This document shows, in pieces, positions 24,707 to 57,700 of a stretch of 64,000 nucleotides of DNA; within the stretch, counting starts at the first letter, position 1; every line of letters begins with the position of its first letter. Below the pieces are notes generated by a model that ran no database searches, was not told the DNA's origin, and was given only the letters and a program-made list of their open reading frames with translations. Made by a program: the position numbers and the translations under genes. The DNA comes from Hydractinia symbiolongicarpus (taxonomy: Eukaryota; Cnidaria; Hydrozoa; Anthoathecata; Hydractiniidae): NCBI RefSeq assembly GCF_029227915.1, contig NC_079884.1, positions 8,432,001 to 8,496,000 on the forward strand, written 5' to 3'.

Positions 24707-25975
24707 GTCTCGCCCGATTTAACGTATGGTTTTCTCGAAGCAAACAACGCCCTCTACAAGCATCAATTTGGCTTTAGGAAAAATTACTCGACTTCTCAAA
24801 CACTTCTGAACATCTCTCAAAAAATTATGGATGCTCTTGATAAAGGAAATTATGCATGTGGAGTGTTCATTGATCTTCAAAAGGCTTTTGATACGGTTGA
24901 TCATGAAATTTTGCTTAAAAAGCTTTTTCACTATGGAATTCGTGGTACCCCACTCTCACTATTTAAGTCTTACTTAACAGGACGTCAACAGTTTGTATCC
25001 ATCAATGGAAATATATCAACTAGTAATCTTATCAGGCATGGTGTCCCTCAGGGCTCTGTTTTAGGACCTCTTTTATTTTTAATTTATATTAACGACCTGC
25101 ATTGTTCAATTAATTTTTCTTTGGTGCATCACTTTGCTGATGACACCAATCTCTTAAACTTCAGTAAATCTTTGAAACAACTGGCCAAACAAATGAATTT
25201 TGACCTCAAGCTTCTTTGCCATTGGCTCAATGCCAATAAAATTTCTCTTAATGCTAGTAAGACTGAGTACATTGTTTTTAAACATACACGGAAACCTCTT
25301 AATTACGATTTTAGGCTTTTTATCAATGGTAAAAGGCTTATACCTAGTAATTGTATTAAATATCTTGGTGTTCTATTAGATTCTGATTTAAGCTGGAAGT
25401 CTCAGATCAATGATACTGTTGCCAAGCTCAAGAGGGCCAATGGAGCTTTAGCTAAACTTCGTCACTTTGTGCCTTTAAATGTTCTTATTCTAGTTTACTA
25501 TGCCATTTTTCATTCACACTTGCAATATTGTAATCAAATTTGGGGTCAGCCAAACAGTCTTGATGTCAATCGTATTACTGTTTTGCAAAATTTTGCTATT
25601 AGACTCATGTCTTTTGAATCTCGAAGAGCATCATCCAGTCACCTGTATGGTAATCTTGAGCTCCTCAAATTCTCTGATATTGTCAAATGTCACAATATTC
25701 TATTTTTACATAAACTATTTCATGAAAAATTGCCTGCTTCTATCCTTAATACATTTGCGGTTGACTTCACCCATGCTCAAGGCACTCGGGCAGAGAAAAT
25801 TGGTTTGATCAATCTCCCTACCTTTAATACTATTTCTTTTGGTAAAAACTCAATTAGATTTAATGCCATTAATTCCTGGAATAAATTGCAGTCTTTAATG
25901 ACTAGAAAATTTGTCTCCCTTGATTATTTTAATCTTAGAAGTGATCTGAAAAAGTACTTTGTTTCCTCTTACTAA
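24707..25975 (+). CDS. LINE reverse transcriptase (partial ORF2)
   Basis: Open from 24707, with the first ATG at 24827, so there is no natural start; this is the C-terminal part of a retrotransposon ORF2. Visible RT landmarks in order: HQFGFRKNYST, VFIDLQKAFDTVDH (first catalytic Asp), HGVPQGSVLGPLLFLIYIND, HHFADDTNLL (catalytic Asp-Asp), WLNANKISLNASKTEY, and KYLGVLLDSDLSWKSQI in the thumb-like region. The frame is uninterrupted to the stop, so the copy may be fairly young. It lies in the same orientation as CaV2 and the MORN gene but is independent of them. Confidence 0.92.
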   Translation, partial: VSPDLTYGFLEANNALYKHQFGFRKNYSTSQTLLNISQKIMDALDKGNYACGVFIDLQKAFDTVDHEILLKKLFHYGIRGTPLSLFKSYLTGRQQFVSINGNISTSNLIRHGVPQGSVLGPLLFLIYINDLHCSINFSLVHHFADDTNLLNFSKSLKQLAKQMNFDLKLLCHWLNANKISLNASKTEYIVFKHTRKPLNYDFRLFINGKRLIPSNCIKYLGVLLDSDLSWKSQINDTVAKLKRANGALAKLRHFVPLNVLILVYYAIFHSHLQYCNQIWGQPNSLDVNRITVLQNFAIRLMSFESRRASSSHLYGNLELLKFSDIVKCHNILFLHKLFHEKLPASILNTFAVDFTHAQGTRAEKIGLINLPTFNTISFGKNSIRFNAINSWNKLQSLMTRKFVSLDYFNLRSDLKKYFVSSY

Positions 25976-40400: not shown

Positions 40401-43400
40401 AGAACAGCAGCTTAACATTTTATTAATAAATTAACTCGCTTTAGTCACTATGGAAAAGTTCTATATAAATGTTGTGTTCGGTATCATTTTGGAACATTGA
40501 TGGTTGGTTTACTAAAAAGCTCGAAATGCTATTCTCGCAAGTTGGATTGTGATAACACCCATACATCAGAATATAGAAGTGTTCATACAAAACATTAGAT
40601 TAGAGTGTTTTTAAACAATATATGTAAAACAATACAGATTTTCCAAGGTTAAAACTACATTTAAAACCACAACTTTATTGCTATATAGAAAAACGTATCA
40701 AATAATTTATGTGGATTTTTTTTTGATCAATCAACGTTTTCCAGCAGGTTATATTTTCAGAAGAAATTTCAGTTTAGAATTAATAACAATTGACTAAAAT
40801 TCTTATTGTCAATATTCCAACCACTAGATACAATTTTTAATAACTCCACGAAATTTGTTATAAAAATTCGTACTTATTCCTAATAATAATTCGCTTATAA
40901 AAAATCTATTATTTTGTGATGTTTAAAAATTATTGTAGCAATGTCAAAATTTCCCTAAAATCTTGTGTAGAGGGAAGTGCAAGACTGGTGGTAATGTTTA
41001 GGCCATGGACGAGTTAGAACTACACAAATTAGTGTTACCTTACACATAAAAACAGAAACAGCAGAAAAATGGCTTACACAAAATTCTCATCTAATGGAAC
41101 TGAATCATATGCTATGGCAAGTGGGTCGTCTAAAAAAAATATTTCTGTTAAAAAAATTTAATTTAAACTTACATTCAAGTCCAAAAGATGCACACACCTT
41201 TTTCTTGTATTTTCATAGATTTTCTTGTCGTAATTTGCGGAACAAACTTGTCTCCACTGTAAGCTGCCATGTAATGTACCCAGTTAATATCGGGAAGTTT
41301 AGCAACTGGTTGTTTTGTCGGAAGGTCTCCTATTTTCTGAACGAAAAACAAGTATATAAAGCATAGCAAAATTACAGAGAAATTGACTTTAAAATTTTAA
41401 TTCCATAATTGCAAATTTGGGTGGCTATTTTGAGGTCACATTTTAATAATTGGAATTAAACTTTTGTGTAGACAGGTACACTACGATAGTAGAGATAACT
41501 GATCATAACAAAAATAATACATGGTGAATTTAAACCTCAACAAATCATAGCATCAATGAATGTAAATAAAAAAATTTGATGTCTTTTCTTAAGAGCAATA
41601 TATATCTTACAGGGAGAGGAAAGTACACGTTGTTGTTACAAATAAAAAAAATAAAGAAAAGCATTTTCTCAATAGAACATTGACATGATAGTAAATCTTT
41701 AATAATTTTTTGTTACGGATTTGGTGACAGTATTGTATTCTTTTCTTTGTGTAAATGAAATCTTTTTTTCACTCTGAGGTAATGATTTTTTCAGGACAAA
41801 TGGCATATTTCGCAGTACACACAATTTAGCAAATGTGGCCAAAATTTATGAAAAATACATCACAGTTAAAGCATTATTACATTTTAAAACTACTTTAACT
41901 TATGCTTCAATCTTCTAAAGCTATTAGAATTCTTCAAGGTAATAAAGAAAACTTCACAATTTATTAAAATATTCTCATGGATACGTTATTTAATTAACAT
42001 TCATTCTTTTCAAAAGAAAAATTTCAGCCAGCTTTTCGTTTTTTGTCAGGATTCATGTTTTGTCAAGATTCGTGCTTTGTCAGGATTCGTGTTTTGCCAG
42101 GATTCGTGTTTTGTCAGAATTCGTGTTTTGTCAGGATTCGTGTTTTGTCAGGATTCGTGTTTTGTCAGGATTCGTGTTTTGTCAGGATTCGTGTTTTGTC
42201 AGGATTCATGTTTTGTCAGGATTCGTGTTTTGTCAGGATTCGTGTTTTGTCAGGATTCGTGTTTTGTCAGGATTCGTGTTTTGTCAGGATTCGTGTTTTG
42301 TCAGGATTCATGTTTTGTCAGGATTCGTGTTTTGTCAGAATTCACGTTTTAGCAGGACTTTTTAATTCTCAGTGTCTAGCAATGAACTTCGTATAGTTAA
42401 CGTAACAGTATACTTATAAAAACATCAGTCAAGTCAACTCAATAACATTACCTTTTCTTGCAAGTTTTTCACAAATGTCAAAGGGTCTGCTAACGCTTCC
42501 GTTTTTAAACTGTTGAGTTTTTCTAAATCCTATAACAGGGAGAGTAAAATATCAAAATAATTTTGTTGCAAAAAAGACGAACAAAAAATCTGTTCTAATG
42601 TAATGTAAAAAGCATGAACATGGGTTGTTTCATATGAAACAACAGGGGCACAGAATTAGGGTGTAATCAAGCATCCTTAGTAATTATTAAACAGCTATCT
42701 CCCAATTAGAATTGATCTTGAATTCCAATTCATTACAACAGCTAACCATATATTATTCCCAATATGAGGCTCATGTAATAAGATTCCATTAATACTTCAA
42801 AATCACCTTGATAAAATTCACATTTGGGATTTAATGGCCAATATTTCGAATTTCTGGATTACACCCTGAAATAGATCTGTATCTCCAGAACACTATGAGA
42901 CAGTATAGCTGAGATTTGGTATACATAATTGTATCATAGCTTGTATATCAAATTACATAAAATCTGGAAATGGTGTTGGTCACATCTTCGTATTTTCACA
43001 TAATGGAAAATATGCACAAACGGTTTAAAAAAACACTCGCTTTATTTAGTTTAAACTACCTTAAAAGGGAAGTAATTTTTTACATGAGGAAATTTAATTT
43101 AACTATAATGTATCTAACTTAAATTTTAATCAAAGATTTAATTTTCACAAATGACTGACCTTTCTATATTTTGTACATAAACAAAAAATTATGAAAATTA
43201 AGAGTGTATTTGCAGGAGAGACACTTCTTTTAAAATCAATTTAAATTTATTCAATGCACATGGAATAAATAATGAGTTTTTAAAAAGGTATCTATAAGTT
43301 TAAAAAAGAGCCTATAGCCTTGCAGTGACATCGCAAAAGTAAAATTGAATACTTCATACCTTAACGGCCTGTACCTTCTGTGCTTCAAGAACAGCCAGTG

Positions 43401-49200: not shown

Positions 49201-51044
49201 TTGCAAATTTCATTAAATTTGGTCATGGTGGGTGTCAAAACCCCACAGGTTATGCCACAGTGATTTTAATATGGGATGAACTGGATGCTATTAGTCAGAA
49301 AACAGGTAATTTTATATAAAACAATTTTATAAGAACACAAGCCACAGATTTGAAAATAAGAACAATATAAGAAAAGAGCTTCAAGCTAAACTAAGAACAG
49401 CCTGAGCTGGAATTTTGCTATAACATAAAAACAATCCAAGATATATGTATAATTATGTTTTAATACTCTCTCAAGCTAACAATTCCCTAAGGTTGTTTCT
49501 TTTTCTGGTTCGATATATCATAAACACAACTATAAAGGTCCATTAGCAACAGAAACATCTAAAAATTTATTTTTGAATGTATATTTTCGTGGCCACTTTA
49601 CTCTCTTAAATAGCAAGAAAATTAATTATTAAAAAATGAAAATTAACATAAATGTAGGTTTCAAATCAGATAATTATATTGTTCAGCATGAACTGACCGA
49701 AATTCAGGTGTTTGTATCCTACTGTCAAGCATTCACTAAACAAGTATATATAGGGATGATTGAGGAAATAAATATCGAGAGGATATGTTGCTTGATATAT
49801 AGAATGAAGGTCACATATATTACCAAAATAAACATGAAATATCAATTGTTTTCAAAACCTTTCTGTCTTTGTTTTGCACATGTTACAGGATTCGAGTAAA
49901 GGAGAAATTAACCACAGGTAGGCCCAGCTAGATGACGTCAAGACCATTGGTTGTTATGGACATAAAATGGCATGATTTTGTAGTAAGAATTACAAATAGA
50001 AAATATAGTTTTAAATATCACTGATTAACAAAGTACTATAAAATAGCAACATAATATTAAATAAGAGGTTAGTATTATAATTGTAAAAAAATAATACAGC
50101 AAGATTAGTGTTATAATAGCCAAATAGTTTTATAATCATGATAGTTGGTAATGCCGCATATTGTAATTATTTTGAATGTTGTGTGTTGCCTTGGGAATAT
50201 TGTGCAATCGTGTGTCGACTAAATTATTCCCAAAGCAAATCACAATCACTACCAAGCATGAAAATAGTTTGTGCATAACATATTATGAAATAGTTTTAAA
50301 AGGACGTTTTTGTTTCTGAGAGTATAACAGAATTGATAGAATGAATTAAGACTAGTTGAAACCATCAAAACTTGTTTATGAAACTAAAAGTGTTTTTAGT
50401 GAAGATATTTAAAACTTGTGTACGCGGTGTATAGTGGCGTTACAAATCGTTACTAATATGGGTCTAATGTGGCTTATTTTTGAGATTAAACATTGTTGGA
50501 CACCGACAATTGAAAATAAAGTTAAATGATAACCGTCTATGTAACACAGATGGCTTGGAAGAATTGGATCCAGAGTGGTACAATTGGGTTATGTCGATGA
50601 AGTTATGCCTTCTAAATTGGTTTTAAGGTGATTAGTACAGCACAACTAGTTGTACAGATAACTTGAGTTGGATAAAATAAGAGTATATAAATTATTTTTA
50701 CTTAACTGTAAAAAGGTGTATCTCATTACATTTTTAAAATAAGGTCTAGTAAAATTGTACCATGGTCACAAGTTAAATAAGGATCAGTGATCACGAGTCT
50801 GTAAAAGATTTGGTGAAGCTGTTGACGGAAGTTTGATTTGCTTATCCAAACCTTGTGTATGTTTTATTAAAAATGGATTCACGGTAGAGATGTACATTAA
50901 CAAAAGAAGTGAGTTTAAATGCCTCACAGTGGTGTGAATGGAACTTATTTCTTCATTCCGAAATTGTAGATATAGCTATAGAGATGTGCATAATTTACGT
51001 GGCTAGTCTCACAAATATCAAGGGATATACCTTGTCTATTATTT
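49201..51044. other. Intergenic, no gene seen
   Basis: AT-rich, with an 87-codon ORF at 49636-49899 and several shorter ones that show no motif or splice context. Confidence 0.45.
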
Positions 51045-51226
51045 CAGGAGGGGCCATGACTGTAATGGGAGTCCAGGAGTATTTAATGCTCTCCTTGAGC
51101 TATGCAAACTCAATTAGGGTCAGCGCTCTGCCAGACAACTCCTTGCAACATCCAACGGCCCACAAAGTGTGCCATCTCCCCAATTTCTCTCACATGGCTT
51201 GGGGATTAACCTGGGGCTATATGGTA
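51045..51226 (-). repeat. SINE body, distal half, separated from its head by a transposon
   Basis: Read on the minus strand this continues the tRNA-like head at 54673-54769. After removing 51227-54672 and one TA, the sequence reads smoothly from head to body (GGCAATTGAATATTA joined to CCATATAGCCCCAGG). It shares the GAGTATTTAATGCTC and GTGTGCCATCTCCC blocks with 6296-6465. The 126-codon plus-strand ORF crossing it is not a gene. Confidence 0.65.
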
Positions 51227-51457
51227 CAGTGCCGATCGCGAGTAAAGCTACACATTTTCGAGAGTAAGAGTACAAAAATAAAACAGTGAGAGTGCGAGTA
51301 ATTCACTCCCGAGTACAACGCGAGTACAACTAAAATGATATTACTCGCATTTTTGTTAATCATACTCTCAATGATTAATTATATTTTTACTCGCAAGTGT
51401 ACTCACATAAGTACAGTTTTTAAAGTCAAAGTAATACGCGCGTGAACACATTTAATT

Positions 51458-51705
51458 TTTTTGCGAGAGATATTAAATTGTAAACGTTAAAAAAATCAAG
51501 TTAAAAAAATTAAACTTTTTTTGCGAGAGATAATAAATTGTAAACTTTAAAAAAATTAGGTTAAAAAAATTAAACTTTTTTTGCGAGAGATATTAAATTG
51601 TAAACTTTAAAAAAAATTAAGTTAAAAAAATTAAACTTTTCTTGCGAGAGATATTATATTGTAAACTTTAAAAAAATTAAGTTAAAAAAATTAAACTTTA
51701 ATTTT
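51458..51705. repeat. 60-bp tandem array, about 4 copies, truncating the transposase
   Basis: Each unit has TTGCGAGAGATATTAAATTG, then TAAACTTTAAAAAAATTA and GTTAAAAAAATTAAAC, with a period of exactly 60 (61 in one copy). The array starts where the transposase reading frame is lost. Confidence 0.92.
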
Positions 51706-52263
51706 AAATAGTGAAAAAGACTGTGTTGTTTGGTGCTCCCACCAGCGATGAAAAGATACCTTTCCGTTCCAGTCCATTTGAATGCAACTCTCGTCTGTCC
51801 ATAAAACATTGCCGAAATCATCTTCCATTTCTTGTACTTTTTTAGCGAAGATAAGCCTTTTTTGACGATTTACTTCCCTTACAAGTTGACAGTACTTTGT
51901 CCCAGTGGAGTACCAACCGAGACCACGTCTTAATCTTTTGATTTTACTTGTAGAAAAGCTAACATTAAATTGCTGAAGCAAAAGTTGTCCAAGCTTGTTA
52001 GCAGTGAGTTCGTCGTTTTTCTCCATGCAGGTGTCGATAAAATCGAGAATGGGGTTTGTAACATTTATTGGTGACTTCGGTTTCCTTGGAAGATTTGCGA
52101 TAGAATGATGCTTGGCCCACTTTTGAAAAAGACGATATATCGCTGACCTTCCAACATTATATCCTTCACTTTTAAGTCTTTTCTTAATTTCGGTGACACC
52201 AAGGTTTTCATTTTTTAAATTGATAATTCTTTGACGAACATGATCAGGTAATTGTTTCCCCAT
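51691..52263 (-). pseudogene. Tc1/mariner-type transposase, N-terminal two thirds, C-terminus lost
   Basis: 190 codons. Residues about 1-60 are a paired-like helix-turn-helix (DHVRQRIINLKNENLGVTEI, IYRLFQKW); residues 75-125 a second HTH-like segment (ELTANKLGQLL...STSKIKRLRRGLGW). VLWTDESCIQMD (about 153-164) holds the first catalytic Asp of the DD(E/D) triad in its typical context. The frame then ends in FHRWWEHQTTQSFSLFKIKV inside the 60-bp array. The second Asp and the third acidic residue are missing, so catalysis is not expected. It is divergent from the BEN gene, with 175 bp between the two ATGs. Confidence 0.88.
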
Positions 52264-52438
52264 TTCGAGTGCTCCTTCTTTTTGGTTTGTTGATAAGAAA
52301 TAAAAAACCGAAAAACAAATTCCCTATTAATCACTTCTGTTTTTTCACTCCCGAAATGAAAAAAGCCGAAAACTAGCTATAAAAGAGTTTGCTTCTTTAG
52401 GAATTCATTTTAAGTGTCTTCATTTATCTGAGTTCACT
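52264..52438. promoter_or_regulatory. Shared divergent spacer between transposase and BEN gene
   Basis: Only 175 bp separate the two start codons, which point away from each other, so one bidirectional regulatory region is likely. It is AT-rich; I do not identify a specific core promoter motif. Confidence 0.45.
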
Positions 52439-53969
52439 ATGGCATCATCATTTTTCAGTCAAACAAGAGTTAAAACATACAAATATGCATGCGTCTTCTT
52501 CGATGAAGATAAATGTATTGGTTCTGTCAAAACTAAAGATATTGTAAATAGGGAAGAAAAGTTACTGAGCGTTGACGACAATGTATTTGTGCGATGGGGT
52601 AGCGGAAAGAATGTACAAAATCACAAAGCTACAATTTTATTTCTAAACAGTAAGTATAGTTTTGTAAACGACCTAAAGAAAAACAGAGGCTAAGTTAAAT
52701 TTTTACTGTTAGTAATAATGATTTTTTTCTTTCTTTTTAGATGAATGGTCAAATTGCACACAGTTTGAAAGAGATTGGTTGAACAACGAGAAAACATTTA
52801 TCATCGAAGAGGTCGGAGAAAAAAAAAAAGAAGAAAAAATAAAAAACATTAAAAACAATAAAAAACGGACAACAGGCGAAACATTAGTAAAACCTCAGAA
52901 GAAGTTCGTCAAAAAGGATGTTAGTTTATAAAAAATTTGTCGTAAGAATCAGCACAGAAATTTTATTCTTTATCTAATTTATGTATTATAAACTTCTTTT
53001 TAGAGTGCAGCTGTTGATAAAAGACAACCTTCATTAGTAGAAATAAATTACAAAGTCCCACAACTAAATTACCAAGTTGATTTTAGTGATGTTTTACGAG
53101 AACCGCGGAAGGCACAAAATGGTAAAGTAGAAAACACCGCCGAAGAACCGCCAAAGGATAAAGTGGAAAACACCGCCGAAGAAACGCCGAAGACGCAAAA
53201 CGATGAAGTTGAAAACACATTCTCCTTTCTAAAGTTATTGGTTTCACCTGGAAAACCACTGCCATCATTTTCGCCACCTACTTCGACACTATCCACTTCT
53301 ATTCTTCCCGACCTACCTTTTTCTCCGCCTTCACCAGCCAGACCTCTGCAATCAACACCTGCCGTTAGAACAACACTTTTTCCGAATTATCCCGAGCAAA
53401 CAAAGCAGTGCACGTGCGATTGTGCTGCTATGCGACAAATCATTGAAAGACTAGAAAAGCGACTAGCTGCGTTGGAAGGGAATGCAATTGCCTTATCCGC
53501 AAACTTTATCGACGACAGTGACGAAGCATTACCTTCAGTCCAGGGGTTGTCTCCACTAAAGGCGATGCAGAGGACGAATATTGATGATGACGATTTTCAA
53601 ATAAATGAAAGATTAAATAGAAAAAAATACAAGGTGGACACAGCTCCTACTATAGAAATTCCGACCGAATTCTGGCCGATAGCCAATGAAGTGAGACAAG
53701 GGGCGACATCTTTCAAAAACTTTAGCTATCTGTTGCTGGCTAAATTATTTGACCACAAGGAGCTTGTAGGAAGAAATTGTCGAGGAGTTAAAAAACCTGC
53801 GATTGATGGCTACAAACAAGATATTGTTAAAGCTTTTTGTTGGAAGTTTTATCCAACCAACATGGCTGCACCGGGTGCATGGAGGGACTGTCAACGTGCA
53901 ATTGATGAATTTATACGACGTAGCAACAGAACAAAGAAAAATTATAAATCATGCATGTTGCAGTCATAA
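52439..53969 (+). CDS. BEN-domain protein encoded by the Tc1/mariner-like element (3 exons, 451 aa)
   Basis: Exons 52439-52649, 52741-52919 and 53004-53969; the introns (91 and 84 bp) have GT/AG ends and the phases agree. Residues about 10-75 form a small beta-rich module (YACVFFDEDKCIGSVKTKDI, VFVRWGSG, ATILFLN) resembling the chromo/Tudor-like N-terminal modules of some BEN proteins (inference). A Lys-rich linker, a short duplicated KVENTAEE segment, a Pro/Ser-rich region and a CTCDC plus coiled-coil stretch (about 266-290) follow. Residues about 345-441 match the BEN fold: FKNFSYLLLAKLFDHKELVG, KPAIDGYKQDIVKAFCWKFY, GAWRDCQRAIDEFI. BEN domains bind DNA or chromatin factors in animal nuclei and some viruses. 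Its place inside the transposon termini, opposite the transposase, argues for a role in the element's own biology, such as target choice, repression or DNA binding. That role is inferred. The frame is fully open, unlike the transposase. Confidence 0.85.
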
Positions 53970-54672
53970 AACTCTTTCAGTTAATAACTTTTTTGTAAAT
54001 ATTTTTTTAGATGTAAATATTTTTTATTTTTAGATTTTTTTAAAAAAATATATCATTAAACATTAAACTGTTTTTTTTTATAAAAAAAATCCCTCACGTT
54101 ATTTTGTTGCTTCGATCTTTAAACATCCCAACAAAAACAAAAAGATAACAAGCTTAGTGACGTCCTGTTTCTACGGCGATATTTTAAAATTATACAGATT
54201 GTTGTCTGAGTTATAAAGCAATGTTTGTTGAAAAATATTCAGAAAGCAAAGTCTGCATGTGGCAATTGATCACCATAACTATAATTAGATATCATTCTGA
54301 CTCTGTGTTTGCGAAAGAACATGCTGGAAGTGATTTCACATAACGAAAGTAGCGAAAGCATTTAAAGAAGAGACACAAAAGTTGAACTTAAAAATTTATT
54401 TTTTAATTATAAACTAAATTAAAAAAAAATTAAATGGTGAATTAAAATTAATGTCTTATGTTTTTCTTTAATATAACTCGCGAGTAACATGATATATTTT
54501 TTTAAAGATTTACTCGCGGGTAGTTTAATTATTGCGTACTCGCGTTATTAAAAAGATTACTCTCGTTTATTTTACTCGCACTCGCATTGTACTCTCACTC
54601 TGAACTATTTTACTCGCATTTATTTGCACTCGTACTCTCAAAGATGTGTAGCTTTACTCGCGATCGGCACTG

Positions 54673-54769
54673 TAATATTCAATTGCCCATATTGAATCGC
54701 GGCCAAGGGGAATCAAACCCCGGTCTCCTGCACAAAGTACAAGAGTGATAACCACTAAACTAGAGACCA
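54673..54769 (-). repeat. tRNA-derived SINE head
   Basis: On the minus strand: TGGTCTCTAGTTTAGTGGTT (box A, about 54752-54762), then GGAGACCGGGGTTTGATTCC (box B GGTTTGATTCC, 54709-54719). The T-arm GGGG/CCCC pairs, but the acceptor arm does not, so this is a SINE promoter region and not a working tRNA. The SINE body continues beyond the inserted transposon at 51045-51226. Confidence 0.7.
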
Positions 54770-57700
54770 TTGTTTAACAACATTGTGGAAACAACACATT
54801 TTGCCATTATATGGCAAAATAAAGCCACCGTCGAAAATATGTTTGGTTAGCGTCATTTCTAATTACAATTTCTAATTACATAAGTGAGTTGATTGGTCGG
54901 TCGGATAAAAATTTTTCCTGAAAAATTAAAAAAATACTATATTTCACAGCCATATTTTGTTATTCGCTTTAAATGTACGCCAGCTGTATTTTTAACCTTT
55001 GTTTCAATTTCGATTTTTGTCAGTCAACATCGTTCCCATGGTTTTCGCTTGTATTGCCGTATAAATGCAAGGCAGGGAAATATAGCACTGAGTAACGCAG
55101 CACAGTCCCCCTATTGAAATAACATTCTGACATTTTGTTGCGTGTCGAAGATTGTTCGTGGATTGTTTGGTTTATTTTATACAAATTTACCAACTCCCTG
55201 ACTTGACTTTCGCCTTTCAAATTGAGTCAGATTCTATCACCATAAGGCTAACACATACTTTGATTGTATACTTACAACAGTAATAGAAGAACAATGGTTT
55301 AATAACATCATATATATAGCTAGCTAGCTATAAATTATACAAACTTTACTAGAGCAGTGATGTGTTGGATATTTGAAGTAGCAATCATGCTATTGGGTCC
55401 ACTGAGCTATTGGAACGATGCTAAGAGGAATTTTAAACTGCTCTCTTTTGTCTCTACCGTTGGCGAATACAGTTGGTGGTTTCAACCCGCTACGGTGGAC
55501 TTAAAACCTTACCTATATTTATGTTATGTGTGGTGCAGAATAGATAGGTTCGTCCACCATGCCGTTTCTTATTCATGTAAAGCGCACACTAGAACGGGCG
55601 GGCAGTTTTTTATCCATCGCCGCCCTCAGACGATTGGTATCAACCTCGAACCCAGGTTTTATGAAGATGAAACGCGTTTCCGCCTCACGCGTGACCTTAT
55701 ATCAAAAAACGCTACAGGTCCTTGCTTCGGGGTTGGATTGTAATATCCCCAGAGAAGCAAAAAAAAAACTTTGAGCGAGCAGTGCATGTGCAGATCCAGG
55801 GTTAGTCAGATAAGTCGCGTGACTAAGTGTAAATTTGACGAAAAATGTTAGCCAAGCGAAGATGTCGACGATCCAGGCGTTGCAAACGGAGGGCGTTAAA
55901 AATTGTAATTTTTTTACGGCGAAAAGCCATGGTTCACAGCCCTCTTCAATTCGCCTGTAGCGATGTTGACGTCAAAGTTGTGACGTCGCTACCATATAGA
56001 CTGAGAGGGTTGCAAATTATAGCTTACAGATTTTGACTGATTCATTTTGACTAATCAGTCACTCAGTCAGTCAAAAATCAAATAGCTATGGCCCGCAACC
56101 CTCCCCATCTCACCTAAGGGGCCTGTGACGTCAAAATCGTGACGTAATTTTCACACTCTATGCGTAGTCCAACAATATGTGGCCCGCAGCCGGCGAAGGA
56201 AATTTAGGTTCCGTACTGCGTGGTTACTGATAACCTGTTAGGCTATAGTTTTAACTCCCATCCGTCAGGATTAGTCGAAGACTCACGCCTTTTGGCTTGG
56301 ATTCTTTCCGTACTATTATTGATTATGGCTGCAGCAGATATGTTGGCGCGGGTGCTTACTGATTTAAAGTGTGACAGAAATTAAAAAAAAGGTTGCGAAG
56401 CATTGCGCAAGTTGCAAGCAAAATTAAACTATCCAATACTTTGTCCCTAGCGCTTCTTGTTTCCTTGGCGCTAACATCTTCCGAAATACATCAAAATTGA
56501 ATATCATATAGAAGAACCCTGGGGACGAGGTAGGAAATGAACGCTCAGCGGAACAATTCGTTGCTCAAAATAGAATAGACTGCGCGAGTATTTGATGTGC
56601 GTGGGATATTCTTTTCAAAATGTGCGAGAAAATTAGATTACGCGAAACTAACAAAAACGAATAACGCGTGTTAAAATTTTGTACCGCCTTTTCCCACAGA
56701 ATGGTAAAAGTAAAGAGCGCAATACAAAATTACACTTTTAGCAGTATTCCGAAAGATATGTGATACATCGAGTTGTACTACCCGCAGAAGTTGGTCCTAA
56801 CGTTAACGATTTCGTAAATGACCTCACAACAAAACAGTATTTTTTTCACGTAAAAATACCAGCAGTAGAAGCCACAGAATCTGCTGGAACGAATTTCGAA
56901 AACTCACGGGAAACAATTAAAACAAAAACAAACAAATCAAAACAGTTTTTTAACTTTATCAAATAGCTTCAAATTTGGGCAGAAAAACAATAACGGATTC
57001 GCCTTCTTTTCACCACACGCATTAGAAGATTACATCACTCACTCCCATTGTACACAATCTAAAAAAAAAAAAAAAACATTTTCATATAGTGAAGCTTCCA
57101 GTGCCTTTAAGGGATGGCCAAGTCAATGGAATTGAAAGCACTGTTTTTCATCTTATAAATAATTAAGGCTAATTCGGAAAAGTATAAAAGAAAAAAACTA
57201 AACAATTTGGCAACTTTACTAATTTTATACGCAAAGTTCCAACCATACCAACAGTTTCCAAATCTGACAAAATAATTTTAGAAGTGTTTATTTTTTCAGA
57301 ATTTGATTGATGCAAGGCCAAGGGAAATTAAATAAGTTTATTGTCCTAGACCCATTTAAAAACATATGCTTCTCATCATTCGGTTTTTTTTCAACCAACA
57401 TTAATGTAATCACCCAGAGGAAATTATAATGTCTCTAGTGTGTGTTTTAGAAGCTGAGTACACAAATACACAAATATTACAAGTGCTGAACTTTGGCAAT
57501 CATATTTTGCAATCAGACCCTTTTAAAAACTATGCTGAACCATGTCAATTATTAAATTCAGCACTAATAGAAAAGCACCTTGGATAGGATTCTTTGTTGG
57601 GCGAATAAAATGACTGACAAATGGTTTATCGTGAATGAAATAGTAATTTTTACACAAATAATTTAAAAAATAATGAACTTTGTTATGTGGGTTGTTCTCA

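Follow-up and report, generated by a model that had tools for sequence, protein, structure and literature searches.

Tc1/mariner elements are the standard example of transposons with a single gene, and tools such as Sleeping Beauty are built on them. Here we describe an element of this type that carries a second gene. It lies at 51225-54674 of a 64,000-nt stretch of the genome of the hydroid Hydractinia symbiolongicarpus (NC_079884.1, positions 8,432,001 to 8,496,000, forward strand; this whole stretch is the window, and coordinates are those of the window unless a copy or contig is named), and its second gene encodes a BEN-domain protein.

Tc1/mariner elements typically encode a transposase alone (PMC12242761). 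Ciliate TBE and Tec elements combine a Tc1/mariner transposase with further genes: TBE contains three open reading frames (ORFs) under purifying selection; one of them is oriented opposite to the rest, and short tandem repeats separate two of the three (PMC4724952). Tec elements carry additional ORFs (PMC7325037). The extra proteins of these elements, which belong to the ciliate germline, are for TBE a zinc-finger/kinase protein and one of 22 kDa in which no domain is known, and for Tec a recombinase; no BEN protein is named among them. Accessory genes in Tc1/mariner elements are already known from ciliates. No BEN-bearing Tc1/mariner element appeared among the top-ranked records of the literature searches, which covered neither Repbase nor most subscription papers, and a term search of the main text of the Hydractinia genome paper (PMC11067881) met neither mariner nor BEN domain.

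The Hydractinia element has the TA sites, CAGT... inverted ends, DDE_3 domain and D-34-E spacing of DD34E Tc1-like elements and differs from them in adding the BEN gene. The window copy is an internally deleted derivative of a young two-gene Tc1/mariner-type (DD34E) transposon, and we regard the two-gene reading as nearly certain. A first-pass annotation of this DNA had delimited the same element without its flanking TA (51227-54672) and described TA flanks and CAGTG inverted ends, a mariner-type transposase fragment on one strand and an intact spliced 451-aa BEN gene on the opposite strand, inside the termini. All of this holds up. The inverted arms (51225-51276 and 54623-54674) are 52 nt long and 92% complementary, each with TA outermost and CAGTGCCGATCGCGAG directly inside, and the parts between them are as follows.

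51225-51226, no strand: TA target duplication, left (of the 19 delimited copies, 17 are exact at both edges)
51227-51276, plus strand: left terminal inverted repeat, begins CAGTGCCGATCGCGAG (52 nt including TA, 92% complementary)
51227-51454, no strand: left end region with 6 CGAGTA/TACTCG hexamers (counted on copy L021)
51460-51705, no strand: AT-rich 60-bp tandem repeat, about 4 copies (also analysed on copy L021)
51730-52263, minus strand: Tc1-type transposase, truncated; start codon at 52261-52263, residues 1-178 of 339 present
52264-52438, no strand: spacer between the two start codons, 175 bp
52439-52649, plus strand: BEN gene exon 1, putative beta-rich N-terminal module (followed by a phase-1 intron; protein identical to P0001)
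52741-52919, plus strand: BEN gene exon 2, lysine-rich linker
53004-53969, plus strand: BEN gene exon 3, with a proline-rich stretch, a predicted helix (residues 270-295) and the C-terminal BEN domain
54470-54622, no strand: right subterminal region (6 CGAGTA/TACTCG hexamers, counted together with the right inverted repeat)
54623-54672, minus strand: right terminal inverted repeat
54673-54674, no strand: TA target duplication, right

The minus-strand transposase frame spans 51691-52323, with homology to the complete transposase at 51730-52263. It is open from its start codon down to a deletion junction near 51730 and keeps the first catalytic Asp without the second Asp and the Glu. The longest copies in the genome hold two segments that are missing here: about 753 bp with the rest of the transposase (absent at about 51730) and about 611 bp between the genes (absent at about 52353/52354). 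Copy L021 (4,794 bp) carries both genes complete and divergent, its BEN gene with an 8-residue in-frame deletion. Its 339-residue transposase has a DDE_3 domain (Pfam, E 6e-14) and the catalytic triad D157, D242 and E277 with 34 residues between the last two, a DD34E triad found in intact copies and not in the window copy, while the N-terminal part gives only sub-threshold Pfam matches to HTH_32, PAX and HTH_Tnp_Tc3_2. Its inter-start spacer of 787 bp consists in part of a 148-bp tandem array of 4.4 units and holds 8 CGAGTA hexamers. Copy L024 (4,107 bp) likewise pairs a complete DD34E transposase divergently with a complete BEN gene. The autonomous form is about 4.8 kb long, its transposase and BEN genes lying on opposite strands and transcribed away from the common 787-bp tandem-repeat region.

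Copies of the element were collected through its left 126 nt, which match at 100% in 18 of 40 scored places, window included (118 candidates). We fetched 20 other copies, 17 with 100% identity over the left end and three with 96-99%. The 19 copies that we call delimited are the window copy and 18 of these 20, L022 and L027 being omitted because their right end was not delimited. Over common stretches, 17 fetched copies are mostly 99-100% identical to the window element, and L026, L027 and L028 are about 89-98% identical to it. Exact TA/CAGTG...CACTG/TA edges occur in 17 of the 19, all 19 left flanks are different, and the internal deletions vary from copy to copy. The transposase is complete in 5/19, the BEN gene in 7/19 (three exons exact, or exon 3 open in L021) and both in 2/19, namely L021 and L024; these two are of the kind for which the first-pass annotation had proposed to look, with an intact DD34E transposase and an intact BEN gene in the same divergent layout. 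Neither of the two findings that this annotation had said would speak against it emerged: the BEN gene is not a lone host gene outside such termini, and other copies do contain it. From the copy pattern we infer a recent burst with interrupted gap repair. Damaged copies retain their termini, as would be expected if they can be mobilised in trans.

The genome also holds a set of related ends, with 78% identity over 112 nt and several equal-scoring copies; some of those places hold only the last ~20 BEN residues, and the set is probably a non-autonomous family. Relatives of the transposase reach 73% identity over 82% of its length, or 95% for a 259-aa piece, among the best 120 of 823. Two scans tuned to close peptide patterns found no relatives in viral or prokaryote contigs. 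Separately, tandem arrays of alike Tc1-like transposase frames with no BEN match nearby occur at C15:8274104-8298202, C1:26348163-26378095 and C12:2214416-2228403 (L041, L042), spaced by about 3,978 or 2,752 bp; next to the array at L041 is a frame that weakly resembles papillomavirus/parvovirus helicases (E about 1e-6).

Across the genome, clustering gave 72 BEN loci, of which 37 have a transposase match no more than 6 kb away, where 0.19 would be expected. These paired loci comprise 23 divergent, 10 tandem transposase-then-BEN and 4 BEN-then-transposase layouts, with 0 convergent, and the 4 BEN-then-transposase loci belong to one rearranged array. The 72 loci were clustered from 79 typed rows of the 135 listed (37/72, 32/44 and 10/19 rows in the individual searches); rows were dropped if E exceeded about 0.05 or if they were further pieces of loci already counted. 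On the transposase side, leaving extra pieces of listed loci out of 133 rows gave 99 loci. The paired share is biased because the BEN queries came mostly from elements; when the Pfam BEN model was the sole query, paired loci accounted for 9 of 19 rows by hand count. Among BEN loci lacking a transposase match, some are deleted copies and others may be host genes. Candidate host BEN genes lie at C14:8490351-8490761, C11:21665858-21666133 and C9:4685481-4685756, in open frames of 447, 305 and 364 aa with no transposase match within 6 kb.

The pairing did not arise as a lone accident: it recurs in two lineages that are separate in the transposase tree and in a third form. We call the window's lineage A, a second lineage with the genes in tandem B, and a third, divergent form C. 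The tree does not unite A and B, whose common ancestor spans 124 of 125 tips (support 0.46), and form C was not among its tips. Related to the window family, L029 has an open transposase 58% identical to that of the family; its BEN frame, again divergent, shows 47% identity over 115 residues. The ends of L029 are similar to those of the family, and no room was seen in it for the first BEN exons. The decayed L031 (transposase ~50%, BEN 48% identical to the window family) contains parts of the N-terminal module and linker. In lineage B (L034, L035, L036 and L038+L032), the transposase lies in exon-like frames and is followed by the BEN gene in the same orientation; L034 is without the last transposase exon and the others are decayed to varying degree. 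The limits of L035 are set by TA|CAGTACCGCTATCAGGAAGCC and the inverse of this sequence, which differ at one of 23 nt, and the element measures 6,055 bp in all. Form C is represented by L044, whose transposase is split and whose BEN gene, divergent from it, contains a single stop codon, and by the similar, less complete L045. In A, B and C alike, the first BEN intron is in phase 1 directly after [L/I]-x-L-[N/S] (splice sites by eye), and the domain order is N-terminal module, lysine-rich linker, presumed coiled coil and BEN.

Two further observations concern lineage B. At C2:27300167-27311998, pieces of the transposase and BEN genes of this lineage form a tandem array with a period of ~2.4 kb. 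L032:3553-5115 (C13:23005052-23006614) holds a P-element/THAP9-like transposase frame (PF21787, E 9.8e-25; PF21788, E 2.2e-18), which follows a lineage-B BEN gene immediately downstream on the same strand.

The 451-aa protein encoded by the three exons is identical over all 451 aa to an NCBI Hydractinia symbiolongicarpus protein (P0001, LOC130637783). Protein searches with it returned only two records at E up to 1, both from this species (one search scored the 7,998 candidates that shared the most words with it). When six BEN regions of lineages A and B are combined into a profile, it hits BEND3 BEN domains of known structure (E 7.7e-13), and 4/6 of its members match Pfam BEN, the best at 2.1e-9. 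Besides the BEN domain itself, the last-helix arginines, R-R-x-x-R, align between the element profile and BEND3, and the presumed coiled coil would be shared with BANP; these two are host chromatin proteins, whereas the Hydractinia protein is transposon-borne and has a putative beta-rich N-terminal module. A single-sequence structure model is poor (mean pLDDT 38.6) and was used as a hint only; with low confidence it places strands at residues 16-31 and 64-69, one long helix at 270-295 and more helices toward the C terminus. The beta-module and coiled-coil assignments draw on this model and on reading of the sequence, which are in line with the architecture of beta-rich N-terminal module, presumed coiled coil and BEN domain given by the first-pass annotation. 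The N-terminal module has one match in the PDB, the Ssl0352 protein (E 0.67), which is not significant.

We also considered whether the two genes are conserved. Between the main element and L029, the proportions of synonymous and nonsynonymous differences (pS and pN) are 0.83 and 0.28 for the transposase (338 codons) and 0.81 and 0.36 for the BEN domain (115 codons), which supports selection: both are conserved while synonymous sites are saturated. The first-pass annotation had read the open BEN frame beside a ruined transposase as a hint of selection on BEN or of mobilisation in trans. Selection on BEN in the window copy is a suggestion that we do not uphold: BEN exon 3 is identical at 321/321 residues in 8 rows, window included, and such near-identical recent copies are too young and therefore uninformative on selection for BEN. 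Nor is there a clear difference between complete BEN genes (7/19) and complete transposases (5/19). A comparison of dN/dS across copies gave pairwise values for BEN of 0.98 (L033), 0.65 (L037), 0.39 (L028, 56 codons), 0.25 (L026) and 0.16 (L030, 74 codons), and for the transposase of 0.65 (L037) and 0.39 (L033, 70 codons); we draw nothing from these mixed values of nearer copies because most of the copies are decayed.

The non-coding parts of the element contain clustered hexamers. In L021, CGAGTA (either strand) occurs 6 times in the left end (230 bp), 8 times between the genes (745 bp) and 6 times in the right end (344 bp), with 0 occurrences in the remaining 3,475 bp; the expectation is ~0.2 per region (first-order Markov simulations, 300 each). 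The window element has 12 in total, and the left-end count could be taken from L021, whose first 507 bp are those of the window copy. L029 has five CGAGTA at its left end and seven at its right, and the decayed relatives L033 and L037 have clusters too, with only a few hexamers in L030. Lineage B has no CGAGTA (0 in L034, 0 in L035). The delimited 6,055-bp L035 instead contains CACGAT, with 7 occurrences at the left end, 8 at the right and 0 between, a hexamer that was chosen on the left end of L034 and then met at the right end of L035 and at the C13 locus (7 times at 718-871, 3 elsewhere). Each lineage with known ends thus has one private hexamer, and both hexamers include a CpG.

These patterns suggest, from comparison of sequences, a two-gene transposition or silencing-evasion system. 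The BEN protein is likely to bind the hexamers found in the element that encodes it, and it is reasonably probable that it is an element-encoded accessory factor that binds the end motifs and aids expression or transposition. The protein would oligomerise through its presumed coiled coil; the oligomer would bind the clustered hexamers of its own element and either keep the promoter and ends open or bridge the ends, with the result that the transposase is expressed and/or the ends are joined. It could also act in trans on deleted copies such as that of the window. If it does bind the hexamers, we slightly favour activation or anti-silencing as its role over bridging of the ends or self-repression, and a putative common bidirectional promoter for the two genes, as the first-pass annotation had supposed, is plausible.

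Known proteins offer parallels to this arrangement. VANDAL elements are Mutator-like, and CACTA (En/Spm) elements belong to yet another superfamily, with a 3-bp target duplication; the CACTA protein TnpA, a second protein, is said to bind short repeats near both ends, in which it would resemble the proposed BEN factor. Arabidopsis VANDAL elements encode a second protein, the anti-silencing protein VANC, and have short family-specific motifs repeated in non-coding parts, with different motifs in related families (PMC10398659). VANC is a plant system in which binding and methylation loss were measured, whereas the Hydractinia case comes from comparison of sequences, and the two are likened by design and not by descent. 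The BEN domains of human BANP and BEND3 bind CGCG-type CpG motifs, and BANP requires oligomerisation to prefer unmethylated CGCG and reject methylated DNA (PMC11472053); its optimum is reported as AAATCTCG (PMC10206803). A more far-reaching possibility, which we consider rather doubtful, is that the Hydractinia elements belong to an old class of animal Tc1-type transposons with their own methylation-sensitive, sequence-specific chromatin factor, the BEN protein co-evolving with a private CpG hexamer (CGAGTA, also at the promoter, or CACGAT) as an animal counterpart of plant VANC, and that animal BEN proteins partly descend from such elements.

Several observations weigh against parts of this account. 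The BEN domain of the window protein falls under the Pfam cut-off (residues 372-437, E 0.089, 13.4 bits vs 23.2), and 35 of the 72 BEN loci are without a nearby transposase match. Among the relatives, the left flank of L029 is TG and not TA, both genes of the delimited lineage-B element L035 are decayed, and neither the right end of L034 nor the ends of the form C elements (L044 and L045) could be found when they were looked for. Profile comparison of the N-terminal modules gave a modest match for A with B (hhalign P 3e-4, probability 40%) and none for A with C. CGAGTA was picked by inspecting the same element in which it was counted, so other elements weigh more as evidence; L029 has a further six CGAGTA within its delimited limits, at 1093-1182, close to an apparent second degenerate terminus. 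The hexamers could also be transposase sites. For the accessory proteins of TBE, specific binding to DNA was not seen in E. coli (PMC12242761), and gene-body methylation is low, by CpG content, in both Hydractinia species examined (0.81 in H. symbiolongicarpus; PMC8857923), which weakens a methylation-based role for BEN.

Other explanations of the pairing can be weighed against the same data. That the transposase binds the hexamer clusters, and BEN acts elsewhere, for example on host chromatin, easing target access or blocking silencing generally, is unlikely. Transposases do bind terminal repeats, and a Tc1 relative in the same genome with no nearby BEN match also has repeated GTCACCAAC motifs close to its frame; the hexamer, however, is short and found between the genes as well as at both ends, unlike the few long sites usual in Tc1 ends, and CpG motifs fit known BEN specificity. 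We think it quite unlikely that BEN is a passenger, captured from the host by an ancestral element and without a role in transposition. DNA transposons such as MULEs capture pieces of host genes, BEN matches without nearby transposase occur in the genome, and 12 of the 19 delimited copies keep both ends, or nearly so, without a complete BEN gene. The pairing nevertheless persists in two lineages and a third form, the BEN domain has a pN of about 0.36 between the main element and L029 at synonymous saturation, and the layouts are non-random (0/37 convergent).

A self-encoded repressor that acts on the divergent promoter and limits copy number would agree with the hexamers in the intergenic array, with the ability that BEN-only copies could have to repress in trans, and with the transcriptional repression described for BEND3 (PMC11472053). 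The clusters are dense at both ends as well, however, and the BEN-carrying family shows a burst of near-identical copies, and this role seems improbable. A host BEN gene with a chance Tc1 neighbour, or an assembly artefact, is scarcely credible. The BEN loci that lack a transposase match nearby would suit it, but many unlinked loci, each with flanks of its own, have the two genes or what is left of them enclosed by the same termini, and the expectation is 0.19 of 72; the chance neighbour is rejected by the copies and by the genome-wide co-location. An accessory factor encoded by the element remains the reading that we prefer.

The recurrence of the pairing in distantly related elements suggests that a helper protein is supplied by some animal Tc1 transposons themselves. 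A second gene, probably for a DNA-binding protein, that is kept over long divergence, together with lineage-specific end motifs, makes a testable case of a helper or anti-silencing function in an animal DNA transposon, and young near-identical copies in a laboratory-used hydroid make such tests feasible. The element also points to a possible route for the exchange of parts between BEN chromatin proteins and transposons.

Elsewhere in the window, a tRNA-like stretch was seen by eye at 54690-54770 (minus strand), just right of the element; it was not called by ARAGORN, run on the whole window, or by Rfam, run on 50000-56000, and neither scan gave any match. A 154-aa frame of repeated units at 41888-42352 (plus strand) is probably a tandem repeat and not a gene. 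At 24707-25975 (plus strand), a 422-aa frame resembles, by eye, a non-LTR reverse transcriptase.

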